Source: a virus. From it: a DNA stretch of 36,906 nt. How positions within the stretch are numbered: position 1 is the stretch's first letter; each line of letters opens with the position of its first letter. The notes below the pieces were generated by a model, which did not search any database, had not been told where the DNA came from, and saw only the letters and a program-made list of their open reading frames with translations. The translations under genes and the position numbers were made by a program. Below, piece after piece: positions 758 to 13,151 of the stretch. The stretch lies in IMG/VR virus record IMGVR_UViG_3300033141_001970, positions 1 to 36,906 of that record; one strand, given 5' to 3'.

Positions 758-834
758 TGGAGCGGGTGAGTTGGAATCGAACCAACCTATCTATACTGGT
801 CTGTATAGTGCATCGCCATCTATGCTTCACCCGC
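758..834 (-). tRNA. divergent tRNA-Gly-like element with encoded CCA
   Basis: Read on the minus strand, 77 nt. The 5' end GCGGGTGA pairs with TCACCCGC (8 bp, one longer than normal). A discriminator T and an encoded CCA follow. The T-arm is canonical (GTTGG, loop TTCGATT, CCAAC). A D-arm of GCAT/ATGC with an eight-base loop is present. The acceptor sequence and U73 resemble bacterial tRNA-Gly. The anticodon arm is abnormal: CTATAC and GTATAG pair over 6 bp and leave a six-base loop, AGACCA, without the universal U33. An ACC triplet (Gly GGU) is present but misplaced. It starts directly after the ParB-like stop codon. It is probably not a normal elongator tRNA; it may be degenerate, a processing signal or a mimic. 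Confidence 0.65.
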
Positions 835-1776
835 TCAGTTTCCTGACAAATAATCAGCTGCCATATATTCTATAGCCTGCCATAGATTTTTATTATTTAT
901 TTCTCCTTTACTCGTCATCATTTTTAAAGCCTTTTTTATTACTTTCCCCGCAGATATAGGTACACAATCAGTGCCTATAATCGAGGACAATGGTATCCAT
1001 CTTTTTCTTTCTCTTAACCAATTTTCCTTGTCCCAACCATCTGATAAATCGGTCAAGTGGCGCTCGAATATTTCCAAAATAATCATTAATGCAGTTGCCA
1101 CACTTCTTATCCCCATACTTTGCGATGCTTTCAAGACTGCATTCATATAATCATCATATTGTTTTTGGCTTACAATCCAACCTCTTTCATCTTTCGCCAT
1201 TTCTAAAACTTTTTCAATTATCTTTTCTATTCTTTCAATTTCACTCGGCAGAAAATAGATTGACACTTTCTGAAATTCTATATTTGCTTCTGTTATAGAC
1301 TCAACGGTTACTTTTTCAAGCAATTCCAACGTTCTATCGTCCAAACCTGTATATTCCTTTAACTCTACATCATCAATCATTTCGTACAATTGTTTTAATA
1401 TTGCAGGGTCATCTTCTCCTACTATGGCATTATGAGCTAATTGTTTCGCTATTCTTTCCTTCTTGGTTAATGGACTGATATATACTTTAACTGTTATTTC
1501 ATCGATTCCTGCGTCTATAGCCGCTTTCACCCTGTGGTTACCAGATATAACTTCCAGTTTAGGATCGCCGTCCTCATCATACTGTATTTTATCTGTTTTT
1601 TCATAGTATTCATAATAAGCACAAAACGGGTCTTGCTCAAGCTCTTTGTCTTTTTTCAAGTTTTTAACAAGCCTCATATATGTCTCATGTTTCATATATC
1701 TTGCGTTCAGTTTGGTTAATATTAATTTTCTTGGATTTATCTTTATAGATTCTATTTTTTTCTTATTTATTTTCAT
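835..1776 (-). CDS. ParB-like nuclease-domain protein
   Basis: A 313-residue protein whose first 110 residues form a ParB/Srx-type domain: the KINPRKL entry strand, then LEVISGNHRVKAAIDAGI with the GNHR signature at 79-82. The remainder is helical and unassigned. In phages this domain often accompanies DNA methylases or modification enzymes, where it acts as a nuclease, nucleotide-binding or regulatory partner rather than in partitioning. The start overlaps the end of the methylase/GNAT gene by 14 nt and has a GGAGAG site inside it, so the two are translationally coupled. The stop codon abuts the tRNA-like element. The domain is clear; its substrate is not. Confidence 0.85.
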   Translation of the reverse strand: MKINKKKIESIKINPRKLILTKLNARYMKHETYMRLVKNLKKDKELEQDPFCAYYEYYEKTDKIQYDEDGDPKLEVISGNHRVKAAIDAGIDEITVKVYISPLTKKERIAKQLAHNAIVGEDDPAILKQLYEMIDDVELKEYTGLDDRTLELLEKVTVESITEANIEFQKVSIYFLPSEIERIEKIIEKVLEMAKDERGWIVSQKQYDDYMNAVLKASQSMGIRSVATALMIILEIFERHLTDLSDGWDKENWLRERKRWIPLSSIIGTDCVPISAGKVIKKALKMMTSKGEINNKNLWQAIEYMAADYLSGN

Positions 1777-3097
1777 ACTTTTCTCTCCATAATTTAAACC
1801 CCTCTTCTAACGTCCATTGCCCCATGTAAGCACCATATGTAACTTTGTACTTGTAATATTCGTTTTTAACAGGTGTCCTTTTAAGCAATTTCAAAATTCC
1901 CCGATATTTCATACTCTCTTTTTTTCTTGTAAACGCTGTTGTAATTACTGCATTCTGTCTTCGTCCCTCTAAATTTTCCGAAATAATCCTCACCTCTTTA
2001 CTCAATACGGCATAAAGTATTAGCTTCGATAAATATTTATATTTTGTAGGATATACACAAAAATCCGTCATCAGATACATATATGGTCTTTTGAGACAAG
2101 CAATATCCCCAAAAATTATATCTGTTCCTAAGGCAAAACAGCCTATTAATTTCTCATCTGCAAAAACCCCTATATCTATTTTAGCGTTTGCTTGCATAAT
2201 GTGAGGATTCAGGTAATAACTTCTCAACGAATTGAAAATATCCTGAGGCAATTTTTTCAGAACTAACCGTGAACCTATATCTTCATTAATTCCCAATCTT
2301 GGCAAAAATACATTTTTTGTTTTTTGTTTAGGTTGTACACAATATGATTTTTCCCCCTTCGTATAAATGTAAAACTCTTTTGATAAATTATTTCTTTTTA
2401 CTCTTCCAACCCAAAATTCCTTTAAACTTTTTATCTCGTGATCTGTTGCAAACAGCCAATGTTTTTTCTCTTTTACTTTTTCTATAAACAGTTCGAGTCT
2501 TTTTTCATCGAACATTTTATATTCCGGTTTATCCCAAACAAATATTTTCTCCATATTTTCGTACAATTTTTCGTAACCACCCTTGTAAAAAGGCGGGAAT
2601 GATATAAATCCTTGATCCTTATTTGCTCTATCTAAATATTCTATCACATCACCCGGATAATAAGAGTCTATTTTTATATTTAATCCCTCCAATTTCTTTA
2701 AGGTCTTTTTATATATACTTTCCCATTGCTCTTTATACGCCTCCCTTAAACGATCATAATATTTATTATTTTTATCCAATCCCACCAGCATATTCGTACT
2801 TATCATAATTGTTGCTAATTTACCAGGCATTGTTTTTATATATTCATTTAACCAGCCAAAATCTGTTTTACAATCATCATTTATTGCAAGAGTCATATCC
2901 TTTCCTAACAAAAAAAAACCAATAGCAGATGAGTATAATGATACATCATTGCTATGCAGCTTATAATTTTTGTTCTGTAACACTCTTTCTATAGTGTAAT
3001 TTCCCGAACAACCTATGTATATATCTTTGCAATCCCAATTCTTTGTTTGGTCTACTATTATTTGCCTCACCTCTAATGGGATTGTCCCTTTAAACAT
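1763..3097 (-). CDS. antirestriction adenine-methylase-like domain fused to a Mom-like GNAT domain
   Basis: A 444-residue two-part protein. The N-terminal half has a Rossmann methylase-like start (IYIGCSGN at 26-33, then SNDVSLYS near 49-56) and an SFPPF motif near 166-170 resembling motif IV of adenine methylases. Phage proteins with this set are commonly annotated as putative antirestriction adenine methylase. The C-terminal half (about 270-444) looks like a GNAT fold: GVFADEKLIGCFALG, then MYLMTDFCVYP, then TAFTRKKESMKYRG and a closing aromatic strand. This resembles Mom-type adenine modification enzymes. The gene lies 1 nt after DUF488 and overlaps ParB-like. Role inferred: DNA base modification that protects phage DNA. 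Confidence in the exact chemistry is low. Confidence 0.68.
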   Translation of the reverse strand: MFKGTIPLEVRQIIVDQTKNWDCKDIYIGCSGNYTIERVLQNKNYKLHSNDVSLYSSAIGFFLLGKDMTLAINDDCKTDFGWLNEYIKTMPGKLATIMISTNMLVGLDKNNKYYDRLREAYKEQWESIYKKTLKKLEGLNIKIDSYYPGDVIEYLDRANKDQGFISFPPFYKGGYEKLYENMEKIFVWDKPEYKMFDEKRLELFIEKVKEKKHWLFATDHEIKSLKEFWVGRVKRNNLSKEFYIYTKGEKSYCVQPKQKTKNVFLPRLGINEDIGSRLVLKKLPQDIFNSLRSYYLNPHIMQANAKIDIGVFADEKLIGCFALGTDIIFGDIACLKRPYMYLMTDFCVYPTKYKYLSKLILYAVLSKEVRIISENLEGRRQNAVITTAFTRKKESMKYRGILKLLKRTPVKNEYYKYKVTYGAYMGQWTLEEGFKLWREKYENK

Positions 3098-3098
3098 A

Positions 3099-3527
3099 TT
3101 ATCCCTCTACAAATATATTTTTCTGTTTTATAATCTCCGTTTCCATGATACTCAAAATTTTATTTTCATCCAATATGTGATATATATTACTATATCCCAT
3201 TTCTACCAATCTTCTTGATATTTCATAGTGTCGATGACATTTTTTGTAATCCTTCTCCATGCACATTATTAGTATGTTTTTTGATTCCGCCAAGATTTTC
3301 AATCCTTCCAGGTCTTTTTCCTCAATTTTACTATATCCACCCAAAATATTACCCATCCATCTATATTTCATCCCTAAAAGGTTTTTTAGATTTTCTCTAT
3401 CAAAATCTTTATTATAACGGCTATAAGGAGTGCTCCTCACATCTAACAAGATGTCTATATCATATTTTTTTACTAACTCCAATATGTATTCTTTCTTTTT
3501 CCCTTGATAACCGCATGTATAAATCAT
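3099..3527 (-). CDS. DUF488 family protein
   Basis: A 142-residue protein matching DUF488 throughout: an opening strand with GYQGKKKEYI, the DVRSTPYSR motif near 28-36, NILGGY, a cysteine strand (LIMCMEKDYKKCHRHYE) and a C-terminal HIL strand. The family is of unknown activity; the conserved Asp-Arg and Cys-His positions suggest an enzyme or nucleic-acid factor. It is the first gene of a three-gene cassette with its own consensus promoter about 30 nt upstream and an AGAGGA site before the start. Its company (methylase/GNAT, ParB-like) suggests a part in DNA modification, which is inference. Confidence 0.85.
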   Translation of the reverse strand: MIYTCGYQGKKKEYILELVKKYDIDILLDVRSTPYSRYNKDFDRENLKNLLGMKYRWMGNILGGYSKIEEKDLEGLKILAESKNILIMCMEKDYKKCHRHYEISRRLVEMGYSNIYHILDENKILSIMETEIIKQKNIFVEG

Positions 3528-3557
3528 CTTATATTTCCTCTTTATTGTTGTGTTGTA

Positions 3558-3586
3558 ATTATACTATATTTTTCTTTATTTGTCAA
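3558..3586 (-). promoter_or_regulatory. perfect sigma-70 promoter for the DUF488 cassette
   Basis: On the minus strand TTGACA (3586-3581) and TATAAT (3563-3558) are separated by exactly 17 bases, a full match to the consensus. The -35 lies inside the last codons of the replication gene, so the promoter adds an independent start for the downstream three-gene cassette. Such private promoters are typical of phage morons. Confidence 0.9.
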
Positions 3587-5107: not shown

Positions 5108-5281
5108 TTTGTTGTTCTCCTTTGGCGCTTGAATTTTATAAACCAATATCCCGTTCTTTTTTTCGATTGACACATAATCGGGTCTTAATATCCATGAGTG
5201 TTTTACCCTGCCCGTTTTATCTATTTCCCTGTAAATATAAAAGTTATCATTATAAACATAAAAGTTATCATCACCAAGCAT
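5108..5281 (-). pseudogene. portal-gene fragment in frame with RuvC
   Basis: From the ATG at 5281, 58 codons run in frame into RuvC. Residues 14-50 (for example IDKTGRVKHSW, ILRPDYVSIEKKNGILVYKI) closely parallel residues 115-150 of this phage's own portal (MNKAGRVKYLW, PLRPDHMTVERKNGVLVYRY). It begins with a short direct repeat of a DDNFY/NDNFY segment. The fragment covers only one stretch of the portal clip/wing region, and is not identical to the resident gene, so it probably came from a related phage. It may be translated as an N-terminal extension of RuvC or as nothing. The homology is visible directly; function is unknown. Confidence 0.65.
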
Positions 5282-5642
5282 TATTATCCCCCGACATTTT
5301 CATTTTAAATTCTCTTGCCAAATCATCGGCATATACCCTACCATAATAAGCTGATAGGCTATCAAGTGTTCTGTCTGTGTTACTCTCTATCAATTCTGCC
5401 AATTTTTTTAATTCTTCTGAAGACCAATCTTTACCGAAAATAATTTCGGGATACCATTTTTTAAACTCTTCTATTGTTTCTATTATTTCGTTCAGCAACT
5501 GCATCTGTTCTTGTTCTATGCGTTTATTGGCTATTTCTATATAATAAGGTGGAGACGTTATTAAAGCATCCACATATTCATCTGGTAGTTGCTTTAATAG
5601 GTCCAGGGCATGTCCCCGATGGATTCTATTTATCCATTCCAC
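5271..5642 (-). CDS. truncated or chimeric DNA methyltransferase-like protein
   Basis: A 123-residue ORF with a GTG start preceded by a GGGGGGTGA site. Residues 1-34 (INRIHRGHALDLLKQLPDE, then VDALITSPPYY) are the opening of a beta-class N4/N6 DNA methyltransferase up to catalytic motif IV (SPPY). No further methylase motifs follow; instead there is an unrelated charged helical segment ending YADDLAREFKMKMSGD. A full enzyme would need about 200 more residues, so this is a remnant or a chimera. It overlaps the portal-like fragment by 11 nt. The region 5108-5736 looks like a pile-up of gene fragments. Confidence 0.6.
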   Translation of the reverse strand: MEWINRIHRGHALDLLKQLPDEYVDALITSPPYYIEIANKRIEQEQMQLLNEIIETIEEFKKWYPEIIFGKDWSSEELKKLAELIESNTDRTLDSLSAYYGRVYADDLAREFKMKMSGDNNAW

Positions 5643-5794: not shown

Positions 5795-6676
5795 TTAGAC
5801 CATTTTCCCCGATATAACCTGTTTTTCTGTTTTTATGCGTCTTCTGTCGGCGTCGTTGTCCCAATATGTTATTTGGATTATACCCCTATAACCGGCAGTT
5901 GCTGTACCCCTATAACCGGCGGTTGCTGTACCCCTATCACCGGCAGTTGCTGTACCATTTTCGCCGGTAGTTGCTGTACCATTTTCGCCGGTAGTTGCTG
6001 TACCATTTTCGCCGGTAGTTGCTGTACCCTCATAACCGGCGATTGCTGTACCCTCATAACCGGCGATTGCTGTACCTCCATAACCGGCGGTTGCTGTACC
6101 CCAGTTACCGGCAGTTGCTGTACCCCTATAACCGGCAGTTGCTGTACCCCTATAACCGGCGGTTGCTGTACCCCTATAACCGGCGGTTGCTGTACCATAA
6201 TCGCCGGTAGTTGCTGTACCATAATTACCAGCGATTGCTGTACCACGATTACCGGCGATTGCTGTACCACGATCACCTACAACTACAATACTACCCTTTG
6301 TATAATCGGTTTTTTCGGCGTACACAACGGGCTTATCTGCTGCACCGTGCGTCAGCAGGTAATCAACAGCTCCCTCTCTTGTTCCGCAATAGACCACATA
6401 ACCCCGTCGGAACTTGCATTTTTGGGTAAGCTCGTCTCTTCCAGCCCTGTAGCCGTCTGCGGGATTGACCTTGAGCACGAGCCAATTAGCATTGGGATCA
6501 TCGTAGAGATATGACGTTTCCCCGCAACCCCACGGCAATCCGTGCAGTCCATGGCCGCACTTATAGGTATCTTCCCAGTCTGGAGCTTCTATCCAACCCC
6601 GTTTCGGATATTTAAAACCATTATGGCTTGTCATATCTGGCTTGACATTCCGCAACACAAGTATATGCTCTTTCAT
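5795..6676 (-). CDS. octapeptide-repeat beta-solenoid protein, copy 1
   Basis: A 293-residue protein. Residues 1-120 form a globular N-domain (KEHILVLRNVKPDMTSHNGF, WLVLKVNPADGYRAG, FRRGYVVYCGTREGAVDYLL), a type found before repeats in many phage proteins of unknown function. About seventeen octapeptides follow, consensus GYRGTATA or AGYxGTAT, close in form to the octapeptide of bacterial ice-nucleation proteins, so a beta-solenoid is likely. I chose the start at 6676: GGAGGG seven bases upstream and ATGA overlap with the previous gene. The C-terminus is frameshifted relative to copy 2: 25 codons homologous to its tail continue in the -1 frame to 5736. Role unknown. Confidence 0.8.
   Translation of the reverse strand: MKEHILVLRNVKPDMTSHNGFKYPKRGWIEAPDWEDTYKCGHGLHGLPWGCGETSYLYDDPNANWLVLKVNPADGYRAGRDELTQKCKFRRGYVVYCGTREGAVDYLLTHGAADKPVVYAEKTDYTKGSIVVVGDRGTAIAGNRGTAIAGNYGTATTGDYGTATAGYRGTATAGYRGTATAGYRGTATAGNWGTATAGYGGTAIAGYEGTAIAGYEGTATTGENGTATTGENGTATTGENGTATAGDRGTATAGYRGTATAGYRGIIQITYWDNDADRRRIKTEKQVISGKMV
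5882..6276 (-). repeat. 24-bp tandem repeat array, about 17 units
   Basis: Degenerate tandem 24-bp units coding GxxGTA(T/I)(A/T). The neighbouring units around 5940-6020 and 6120-6190 are almost identical, which points to recent expansion by slippage or unequal exchange. The array is in frame and lacks stops on several frames, which creates long spurious ORFs on the plus strand. Confidence 0.9.
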
Positions 6677-7089
6677 TTTATCCCTCCGCAGCTCAAAAAC
6701 AACATTATCAATCCAATCGTTACCCTTACAAGAGATACCAGTGTTGAATTTAGCCTTTTCCCCGTGCCGAGAAAATTCTCTGTTTCGGGAAACATAATAT
6801 AAAATCTTGTATAAGAATATGCACCCTCGAACATCTGCCACGAAAGTATAAATGAGCCGCTCATAAATAGCACATAATATACGGTCGGCTCAAATGTACG
6901 GTTAATCAATGCACCTATAAGAGCTGCGGCAAACATCGTCATTATGTCAATGCGGTGATAATATTTGTAATACCGATGGTGTCTTGCACCCTCAACAACA
7001 CGTGTTTTGTACATATCGATGCCTTCGCCGACGCCCCGCAAAATGTTGAATATAATTATAGCCACGAACAATGCAATGTAATCATACAT
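6673..7089 (-). CDS. polytopic membrane protein
   Basis: A 138-residue protein with about four hydrophobic segments: residues 4-20 (IALFVAIIIFNIL), 50-63 (MTMFAAALIGALI), 70-86 (VYYVLFMSGSFILSW) and 120-132 (VTIGLIMLFLSC). A perfect AAAGGAGG site precedes the start. It overlaps repeat protein copy 1 by ATGA, so the two are coupled. The last residues (MLFLSCGGIK) are mirrored by a ten-codon out-of-frame relic (MLFLSCGGTK) just before repeat protein copy 2, which shows the duplication took in the 3' end of this gene. No family recognised; an inner-membrane role is inferred. Confidence 0.78.
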   Translation of the reverse strand: MYDYIALFVAIIIFNILRGVGEGIDMYKTRVVEGARHHRYYKYYHRIDIMTMFAAALIGALINRTFEPTVYYVLFMSGSFILSWQMFEGAYSYTRFYIMFPETENFLGTGKRLNSTLVSLVRVTIGLIMLFLSCGGIK

Positions 7090-12358: not shown

Positions 12359-12404
12359 GGCGGACTTGAGACCGCCCTTGTCCTTTAACCGGGCAAGCGC
12401 CCGG
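12359..12404 (-). promoter_or_regulatory. pair of GC-rich hairpins in leader
   Basis: Two hairpins lie between the 69-residue gene and the 121-residue gene: CCGGGC with a GCTT tetraloop and GCCCGG (12404-12389), then GGCGG/CCGCC with an eight-base loop (12376-12359). Neither is followed by a T-run, so they are not intrinsic terminators. Roles could be mRNA protection, processing or translational control. Confidence 0.55.
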
Positions 12405-12408
12405 CCTC

Positions 12409-12618
12409 TCAGGTATATAATCTTGCGTCAAGCCCATATAGCGCCGCAAGTGCAATCCTTGTAGCTGGACATGTGCAATCTTTTTTCCCGCACAGCTTCT
12501 CCCAGACCTTGTGAGCTTGTGTGGGCGTAATGTACAGGTACCCGTTATGGATTTTAGCGCGGACCGTGTACTCCGTGTTGTGGAAATCGTTTTTGAGTGT
12601 GATTTCTTGAGTCTTCAT
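12409..12618 (-). CDS. small hypothetical protein
   Basis: A 69-residue protein with a beta N-terminus (EITLKNDFHNTEYTVRAKIH, NGYLYITPTQAHKVWEKLCG) and a short KKDCTCP loop followed by a helix. It could hold a metal through its three Cys. The family looks familiar from Clostridia-type phages but I cannot name it. An AGAGGGGG site precedes the start. Confidence 0.7.
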   Translation of the reverse strand: MKTQEITLKNDFHNTEYTVRAKIHNGYLYITPTQAHKVWEKLCGKKDCTCPATRIALAALYGLDARLYT

Positions 12619-13122: not shown

Positions 13123-13151
13123 ATTATAATATATTGCCTATATCTTGTCAA
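13123..13151 (-). promoter_or_regulatory. perfect sigma-70 promoter of the early operon
   Basis: TTGACA (13151-13146) and TATAAT (13128-13123) with exactly 17 bases between, on the minus strand, about 50 nt ahead of the zinc-ribbon start. The spacing and both boxes match the consensus fully. Phased A-tracts lie directly upstream. Confidence 0.93.

Follow-up and report, generated by a model that had tools for sequence, protein, structure and literature searches.

The Mom protein of phage Mu has a GNAT fold (phrog_1384; PDB 8BV8), and its product is N6-carbamoylmethyl (glycinamide) adenine. To our knowledge, the donor for this modification has been an open question ever since the modified base was identified. 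GNAT-fold enzymes which use aminoacyl-tRNA are known from peptidoglycan and protein N-end chemistry, and staphylococci have a non-proteogenic tRNA-Gly which is used by GNAT-fold transferases of the FemX type.

We analysed a viral DNA of 36,906 bp (IMG/VR virus record IMGVR_UViG_3300033141_001970, positions 1 to 36,906), which in its full length is referred to as "the window". It carries a cassette whose GNAT domain has Mu Mom as its top structural match. Unlike Mu Mom, this domain forms one protein with a Dam fold, is accompanied by a DUF488 protein, and is missed by the Mom PHROG; also, the cassette has an RNA of its own while Mu has none. An earlier note had interpreted the region as a unit that alters phage DNA to resist restriction, a reading which is partly supported by our analysis. 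The most informative part of the cassette, which was overlooked in that note, is the tRNA-like RNA, and it points to a mechanism. Together, the three proteins and the RNA probably represent a phage DNA-modification cassette which decorates the phage's own DNA.

Organization of the cassette

All cassette genes are encoded on the minus strand. The order from the promoter is a DUF488 protein (142 aa, 3099-3527), a 444-aa protein designated MT-GNAT (1763-3097), a ParB-like protein (313 aa, 835-1776), and the tRNA-Gly-like RNA (761-834) with an encoded CCA at 758-760. Gene junctions consist of a 1-nt gap or a 14-nt overlap. The sigma-70 promoter TTGACA-17-TATAAT (3586..3558) agrees with the consensus at 12/12 positions and is located 30 bp 5' of the DUF488 start codon. 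Two exact copies of this promoter occur in the window (the other at 13151, minus strand), compared to 0.03 expected per simulated window. The GC content of the cassette is 31.7% versus 40.7% for the remainder of the window, and is equalled or undercut by just 13 of the 685 same-size sliding windows. A search for a terminator adjoining the cassette returned none.

The features on which the earlier note had been built (exact promoter, DUF488, two-domain protein, ParB-like protein, tight packing, AT-richness) are all present. Its range of 835-3586 is correct with respect to the contents but ends one base short of the RNA gene belonging to the unit. The note had also called the unit moron-like. 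The promoter and the AT-richness are in accordance with this term, but related cassettes are found at recurrent positions, often directly ahead of terminase genes, which leaves the unit no more than a candidate moron.

Several features elsewhere in the window were recorded. A type-P5 twister ribozyme is found at 12360-12413 (minus strand, 52.5 bits), and an ORF at 5795-6841 (minus strand) contains a long run of short GTATAGYR-type repeats. At 5271-5642 (minus strand), a short ORF resembles DNA methyltransferase families over no more than a short stretch of their N-terminal part (TSPPYY) and is apparently a truncated or fused gene.

The MT-GNAT protein

MT-GNAT (phrog_7858) is covered by two Pfam domains. 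Residues 1-249 (2351..3097, minus strand) match PF22555 (DAM-like-phage1, 7e-83) and the region from residue 275 to the C-terminus (1763..2275, minus strand) matches PF22559 (GNAT-phage-like, 4e-41). The AF2 model, based on an alignment of 56 sequences, has a mean pLDDT of 93, and its best PDB match by Foldseek is 8BV8, Mom from phage Mu (E 6e-5). When compared by VIA-align, residues 275-427 superimpose on 8BV8 with Z 11.5 (rmsd 3.1, 144 aligned) and residues 1-249 on E. coli Dam (2G1P) with Z 14.9 (rmsd 4.8, 198 aligned), the highest value among Dam-type adenine methyltransferases (E. coli, T4, DpnM). A profile-profile comparison with eight Mom proteins aligned just 54 columns (probability 62, E 8e-5), the Mom PHROG phrog_1384 did not match the GNAT domain from the window, and PDB sequence searches retrieved no relative. 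The earlier note had let its reading depend on methylase and GNAT folds being found by structure prediction. Both are found, and Mu Mom is the solved structure closest to the GNAT domain.

The methylase-like domain proposed in that note stands as a Dam fold but probably not as a simple methylase. Residues of the SAM pocket are conserved (G32 and D51 invariant across 65 relatives, D150 in 63/65). Unlike the Dam-type enzymes, the protein has FPPF in place of DPPY as motif IV, and hhalign detected no profile similarity between the MT-GNAT family and T4 Dam. In motif IV, 54 of the 65 relatives have lost the catalytic D/N and have Phe, Tyr, Ala, or Ser in its place or another change; Asn is confined to a clade with NPP[T/A] (11 members, support 100/100). 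The change to FPPF makes it probable that the 444-aa protein is not a plain methylase. The acetyl-CoA motif A, [QR]xxGx[GA], was found in the GNAT domain of 0/65 relatives. Because the catalytic D/N is mostly lost and motif A is absent, the enzyme, which according to its model is both Dam-folded and Mom-folded, is unlikely to be just a methylase or just an acetyltransferase.

The MT-GNAT fold, or the GNAT domain within it, is also matched by phage proteins named amidoligase (PHROG phrog_2443; BFVD A0A8S5SJK3), a hint of GNAT-ligase fusions that could extend the modification.

Protein partners in related loci

Related loci (166 in total, the window and loci from phage records being counted in) were gathered mostly by either the MT-GNAT or the ParB gene, and these are present in 164/166 and 166/166 loci, respectively. 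The pair was encountered in phages of Gordonia, Mycobacterium, Faecalibacterium, and Microbacterium. Many bacterial phyla also have it, either in their genomes or in prophages. When loci are grouped at 70% identity, ParB adjoins MT-GNAT in 64 of the 66 groups, and DUF488-type genes are frequent partners, which supports the earlier note in this respect. Terminase genes often follow the cassette in relatives.

The ParB-like protein matches phrog_7405 (2e-57) and, more weakly, ParB PHROGs, but is not matched by Pfam PF02195 (ParB). It has a box-II-like SGNHR, and Arg82 is invariant (52/52). Both phrog_7405 and phrog_7858 carry the label "unknown function" in PHROGs. ParB-like folds have been described to bind various NTPs (PMC12704722). 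A fusion of ParB to MT-GNAT was considered for some loci and was dropped, the gene order being reversed there. In Streptomyces-type loci, canonical-looking ParB genes were noticed on the upstream side of the cassette (L023, 4041-5180; L025, 3296-4459).

The DUF488 protein from the window matches PF04343 well above the cut-off (56.9 bits versus 22.2; E 4e-15). Both DUF488-type subclades that occur with the cassette have its residues C89, C97, H98, and R99 without exception. The model (pLDDT 84) has a predicted Rossmann-like fold, for which Foldseek reports weak matches to RNA 5'-triphosphatase and DSP phosphatases; there is also a weak match to diphthine synthase (Z about 10). In the literature, DUF488 is placed in the rhodanese-phosphatase superfamily, and the weak fold matches agree with this without proving it.

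A protein of the DUF488 superfamily accompanies the cassette in most of the 66 groups. By neighbour clustering, a DUF488-type protein is near MT-GNAT in 41 of 65 representatives, usually directly upstream and in 39/41 cases on the same strand; DUF488 proper occurs in seven of the 65, including the window. With one DUF488-like protein as query, 14 of 50,697 phage records were retrieved, and all 14 have the cassette. In Microbacterium phage ValentiniPuff, the order is DUF488-like, DUF488, MT-GNAT, and ParB, running across the record ends. In four loci (L005, L051, L111, L125), an S-adenosylmethionine synthetase-like gene was seen up to about 3.5 kb upstream of the cassette; in FP_Brigit, that upstream gene is annotated as S-adenosylmethionine synthetase.

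In the earlier note, DUF488 was put forward as a new component. This is probably not the case: the domains of the cassette proteins are those of the Pfam families DAM-like-phage1, GNAT-phage-like, and DUF488-N3a, and as these names match one another, the protein trio seems to be catalogued already. The names probably originate from a published study on the rhodanese-phosphatase superfamily. As to a tRNA partner for the cassette, no report was found in the literature searched, preprints and most subscription papers being outside the reach of that search.

A tRNA-Gly-like RNA directly follows the ParB gene

The 74 nt located directly 3' of the ParB stop codon (761-834, minus strand) form a cloverleaf, and the stretch has a folding energy of -32.6 kcal/mol (z -4.8). 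G1 directly follows the stop codon. The acceptor stem comprises 8 bp (GCGGGTGA/TCACCCGC) and is continued by U73 and the encoded CCA. The complete identity set for bacterial GlyRS is present (G1-C72, C2-G71, G3-C70, U73, C35, C36, and the CCA end). The anticodon loop has 8 nt (CAGACCAG), with ACC and without U33, and in this deviates from elongators, for which a 7-nt loop with U33 is taken as diagnostic.

A covariance model built from 32 cassette tRNAs, with the window excluded, has 761-834 as its sole match in the window (47.1 bits, E 9e-10). ARAGORN and Rfam at its gathering score made no call at this RNA; at permissive E, Rfam reports it as tRNA-Sec with 26.5 bits, which is below the cut-off for that family. 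A second tRNA-like RNA in the window, at 14830-14903 (minus strand), is a tmRNA match in Rfam (67 bits), but spans just 74 nt, with the tRNA-like domain and CCA and without the mRNA part; it overlaps the end of the ORF 14877-15248.

Cassette RNAs among the relatives

In related loci, the DUF488-type gene and MT-GNAT are commonly separated by a tRNA-Gly gene in the same orientation, as detected by ARAGORN. An RNA in strict position is found in 38 of the 66 groups; among the about 28 others, several are cut by a contig end or have the RNA further off. Over all loci, 128 RNA elements are at the cassette, of which 127 are on the same strand, and 26 elements, mostly tRNA-Leu and tRNA-Met, are away from it. 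The helices show a covariation of 0.792 compared to 0.208 in shuffled alignments (0/500), which drops to about 0.1 when slid by 1-3 columns.

Among 52 Gly-type RNAs, the set G1C2G3/C70G71C72/U73 is found in 49, and C35C36 in 52/52, a count which is partly by construction because the training set was first chosen by ARAGORN, which labels Gly by anticodon. Features needed for decoding are far less conserved: U33 occurs in 28/52, the GG of the D-loop in 25/52, and T54T55C56 in 27/52, compared to 22/23, 22/23, and 21/23 in the tRNAs of phage T5 (Fisher P 4e-4, 6e-5, and 1e-3), with the reservation that the relatives in these counts are not independent samples. A34 is present in 17/52; we know of no use of A34 by bacterial tRNA-Gly. 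Some cassette tRNAs retain normal decoding features. As the identity elements are kept while the decoding features are degenerate, the features read by GlyRS have been retained and those read by the ribosome and the elongation factor have been relaxed.

The RNA type correlates with the type of enzyme. In the main enzyme clade, the cassette tRNAs are with few exceptions of the Gly type with C35C36, and among the 54 representatives outside the NPP[T/A] clade, every RNA detected is a Gly type with G1-C72. RNAs from the NPP[T/A] clade have C1-G72 with anticodon CTT or TGG (Brigit-like) or with CCC or TCC, and a Gln-type tRNA (U1-A72/G73/CTG) also occurs. Locus L149 has one weak element which is ambiguous in type.

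The same RNA is found beside classical mom genes

We also inspected 78 loci with standalone Mom, the members of which match phrog_1384. The covariance model detected 56 elements, all on the same strand and 44-91 nt past the aligned mom region, with an encoded CCA in 49/56. A model-free rule (a 7-bp acceptor starting with GC, a T arm, and GC-U-CCA) detected an element directly 3' of mom in 66/78 loci and one elsewhere in 810 kb. The two methods combined account for 76 of the 78 loci, and one of the remaining two is cut by a contig end. A normal D arm seems to be missing from several of these RNAs, and in some loci the element overlaps an open frame running on from mom. The RNA thus recurs with two distinct Mom-type enzyme lineages, Dam-Mom fusions and classical Mom.

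Some Mom phages (Y8A, MenE) resemble the window in that ParB is adjacent, and many mom genes outside Mu adjoin a tRNA-Gly-like RNA. In Microbacterium phage MenE, a Mom-like protein is accompanied by ParB and by tRNA-Gly, the tRNA being encoded on the other strand. In Psychrobacter phage Y8A, ParB and a Mom-like protein are followed by terminase genes. Further laboratory phages with such a set are Mycobacterium phage Jeon, which infects M. smegmatis and likewise has a tRNA-Gly gene, and Gordonia phage Jollymon. No tRNA genes were reported for Y8A (PMC10434257); a degenerate element starts 8 nt 3' of its mom-like gene. In close relatives of Mu the element is absent from mom, and among 28 Mu-like loci the rule detects it in just two, which are more distant ones.

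Proposed mechanism and alternative explanations

The association of the RNA with the cassette and with mom is shown by the loci above, and suggests that an amino acid delivered by a tRNA may be attached to phage DNA. The phage would make a dedicated tRNA-Gly-like RNA which would be charged by the host glycyl-tRNA synthetase and hardly be used by the ribosome. The Mom-fold GNAT would take glycyl from this RNA instead of acetyl-CoA and pass it on to a base of the phage DNA, N6 of adenine being the most likely site. The Dam-fold domain fused to it, which retains the SAM-pocket residues but has lost DPPY, may position or flip the base, ParB may target or tether the DNA or serve as an NTP switch, and the DUF488 protein, as a rhodanese-phosphatase-type protein, may handle an RNA or DNA end. 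Phage DNA modified in this way would escape host restriction. The clade with NPP[T/A] may use amino acids other than glycine. That the cassette consists of three proteins and one RNA for DNA hypermodification, with glycyl passing from the dedicated RNA via the Mom-fold GNAT to DNA, is a reading towards which we lean slightly.

As N6-glycinamide adenine is an isomer of N6-glycyl adenine (+57.02 Da), the known Mom product could be accounted for by a glycyl donor followed by a rearrangement, which we infer. The proposed use resembles that of the staphylococcal tRNA-Gly for FemX, where the GlyRS identity is likewise kept, features for decoding and elongation are degenerate, and the user is a GNAT-fold enzyme (as proposed here for the cassette). 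Unlike in that system, the acceptor would be DNA rather than peptidoglycan, and the RNA is encoded by the phage beside the enzyme. Under the tRNA-donor reading, Mu and its closest relatives, which have no such RNA, would need a host Gly-tRNA. Mu Mom has reportedly been found, in a 2020 study, to bind acetyl-CoA and iron, which counts against a tRNA as donor. For the class as a whole, our judgement is evenly balanced as to whether aminoacyl-tRNA is the donor, with Mom and Mom-like GNATs attaching Gly (or, in one clade, Lys or Gln, for example) to DNA bases from a dedicated, largely non-decoding tRNA which the phage encodes.

An alternative is Mom-type modification with an acyl-CoA donor and a separate role for the RNA, such as translation control of mom or glycine tRNA buffering. 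The Mom fold as the closest match is in line with this, and an overview has Mom using acylated CoA such as glycyl-CoA (PMC7824862). However, motif A for acetyl-CoA is missing throughout the family, a regulatory RNA would need neither the identity at the acceptor end and C35C36 nor the often encoded CCA, and the RNA recurs with both enzyme lineages; we regard this explanation as unlikely.

GNAT toxins that acetylate Gly-tRNA are known. The GNAT could thus be a TacT/AtaT-type toxin which acylates Gly-tRNA and stops host translation, the phage RNA being a decoy or a resistant substitute, which would be consistent with the RNA being a poor decoding tRNA. This is decidedly improbable given that the GNAT is closest in fold to Mom and is joined to a Dam fold, that ParB is a constant and terminase a frequent neighbour, and that, here too, motif A is lacking. 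We attribute a similarly low probability to a plain adenine methyltransferase with an accessory acetyltransferase, where methylation alone would protect from restriction: the Dam fold and the retained G32, D51, and D150 speak for it, and the altered motif IV, with Asn just in the NPP clade, speaks against it. Last, the tRNA genes could adjoin the cassette by chance, as normal aids to translation or as scars of integration (phages often have tRNAs, and U33 is kept in about half of the Gly-type RNAs). This is very improbable in view of their position and strand bias at the cassette, their concentration at Mom loci, the loss of decoding features, the full length and strong covariation of the RNAs, and a tRNA type which tracks the enzyme clade.

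Implications

A tRNA-dependent DNA modification is a categorically new reading, which the evidence favours, short of proof. The occurrence of a tRNA-Gly-like gene beside both mom and the Dam-Mom fusions makes the donor question testable in a concrete and cheap manner. If the reading is true, the origin of the glycinamide group of Mom would be explained, and this would be the first tRNA-dependent DNA modification, tying aminoacylation of the kind used in translation to the chemistry of DNA. The type of tRNA would then predict which other amino acids are attached to DNA, and a CCA-ended RNA beside a GNAT would be a marker for further such systems. It would also explain a class of phage "tRNAs" which are ill-suited to codon use.
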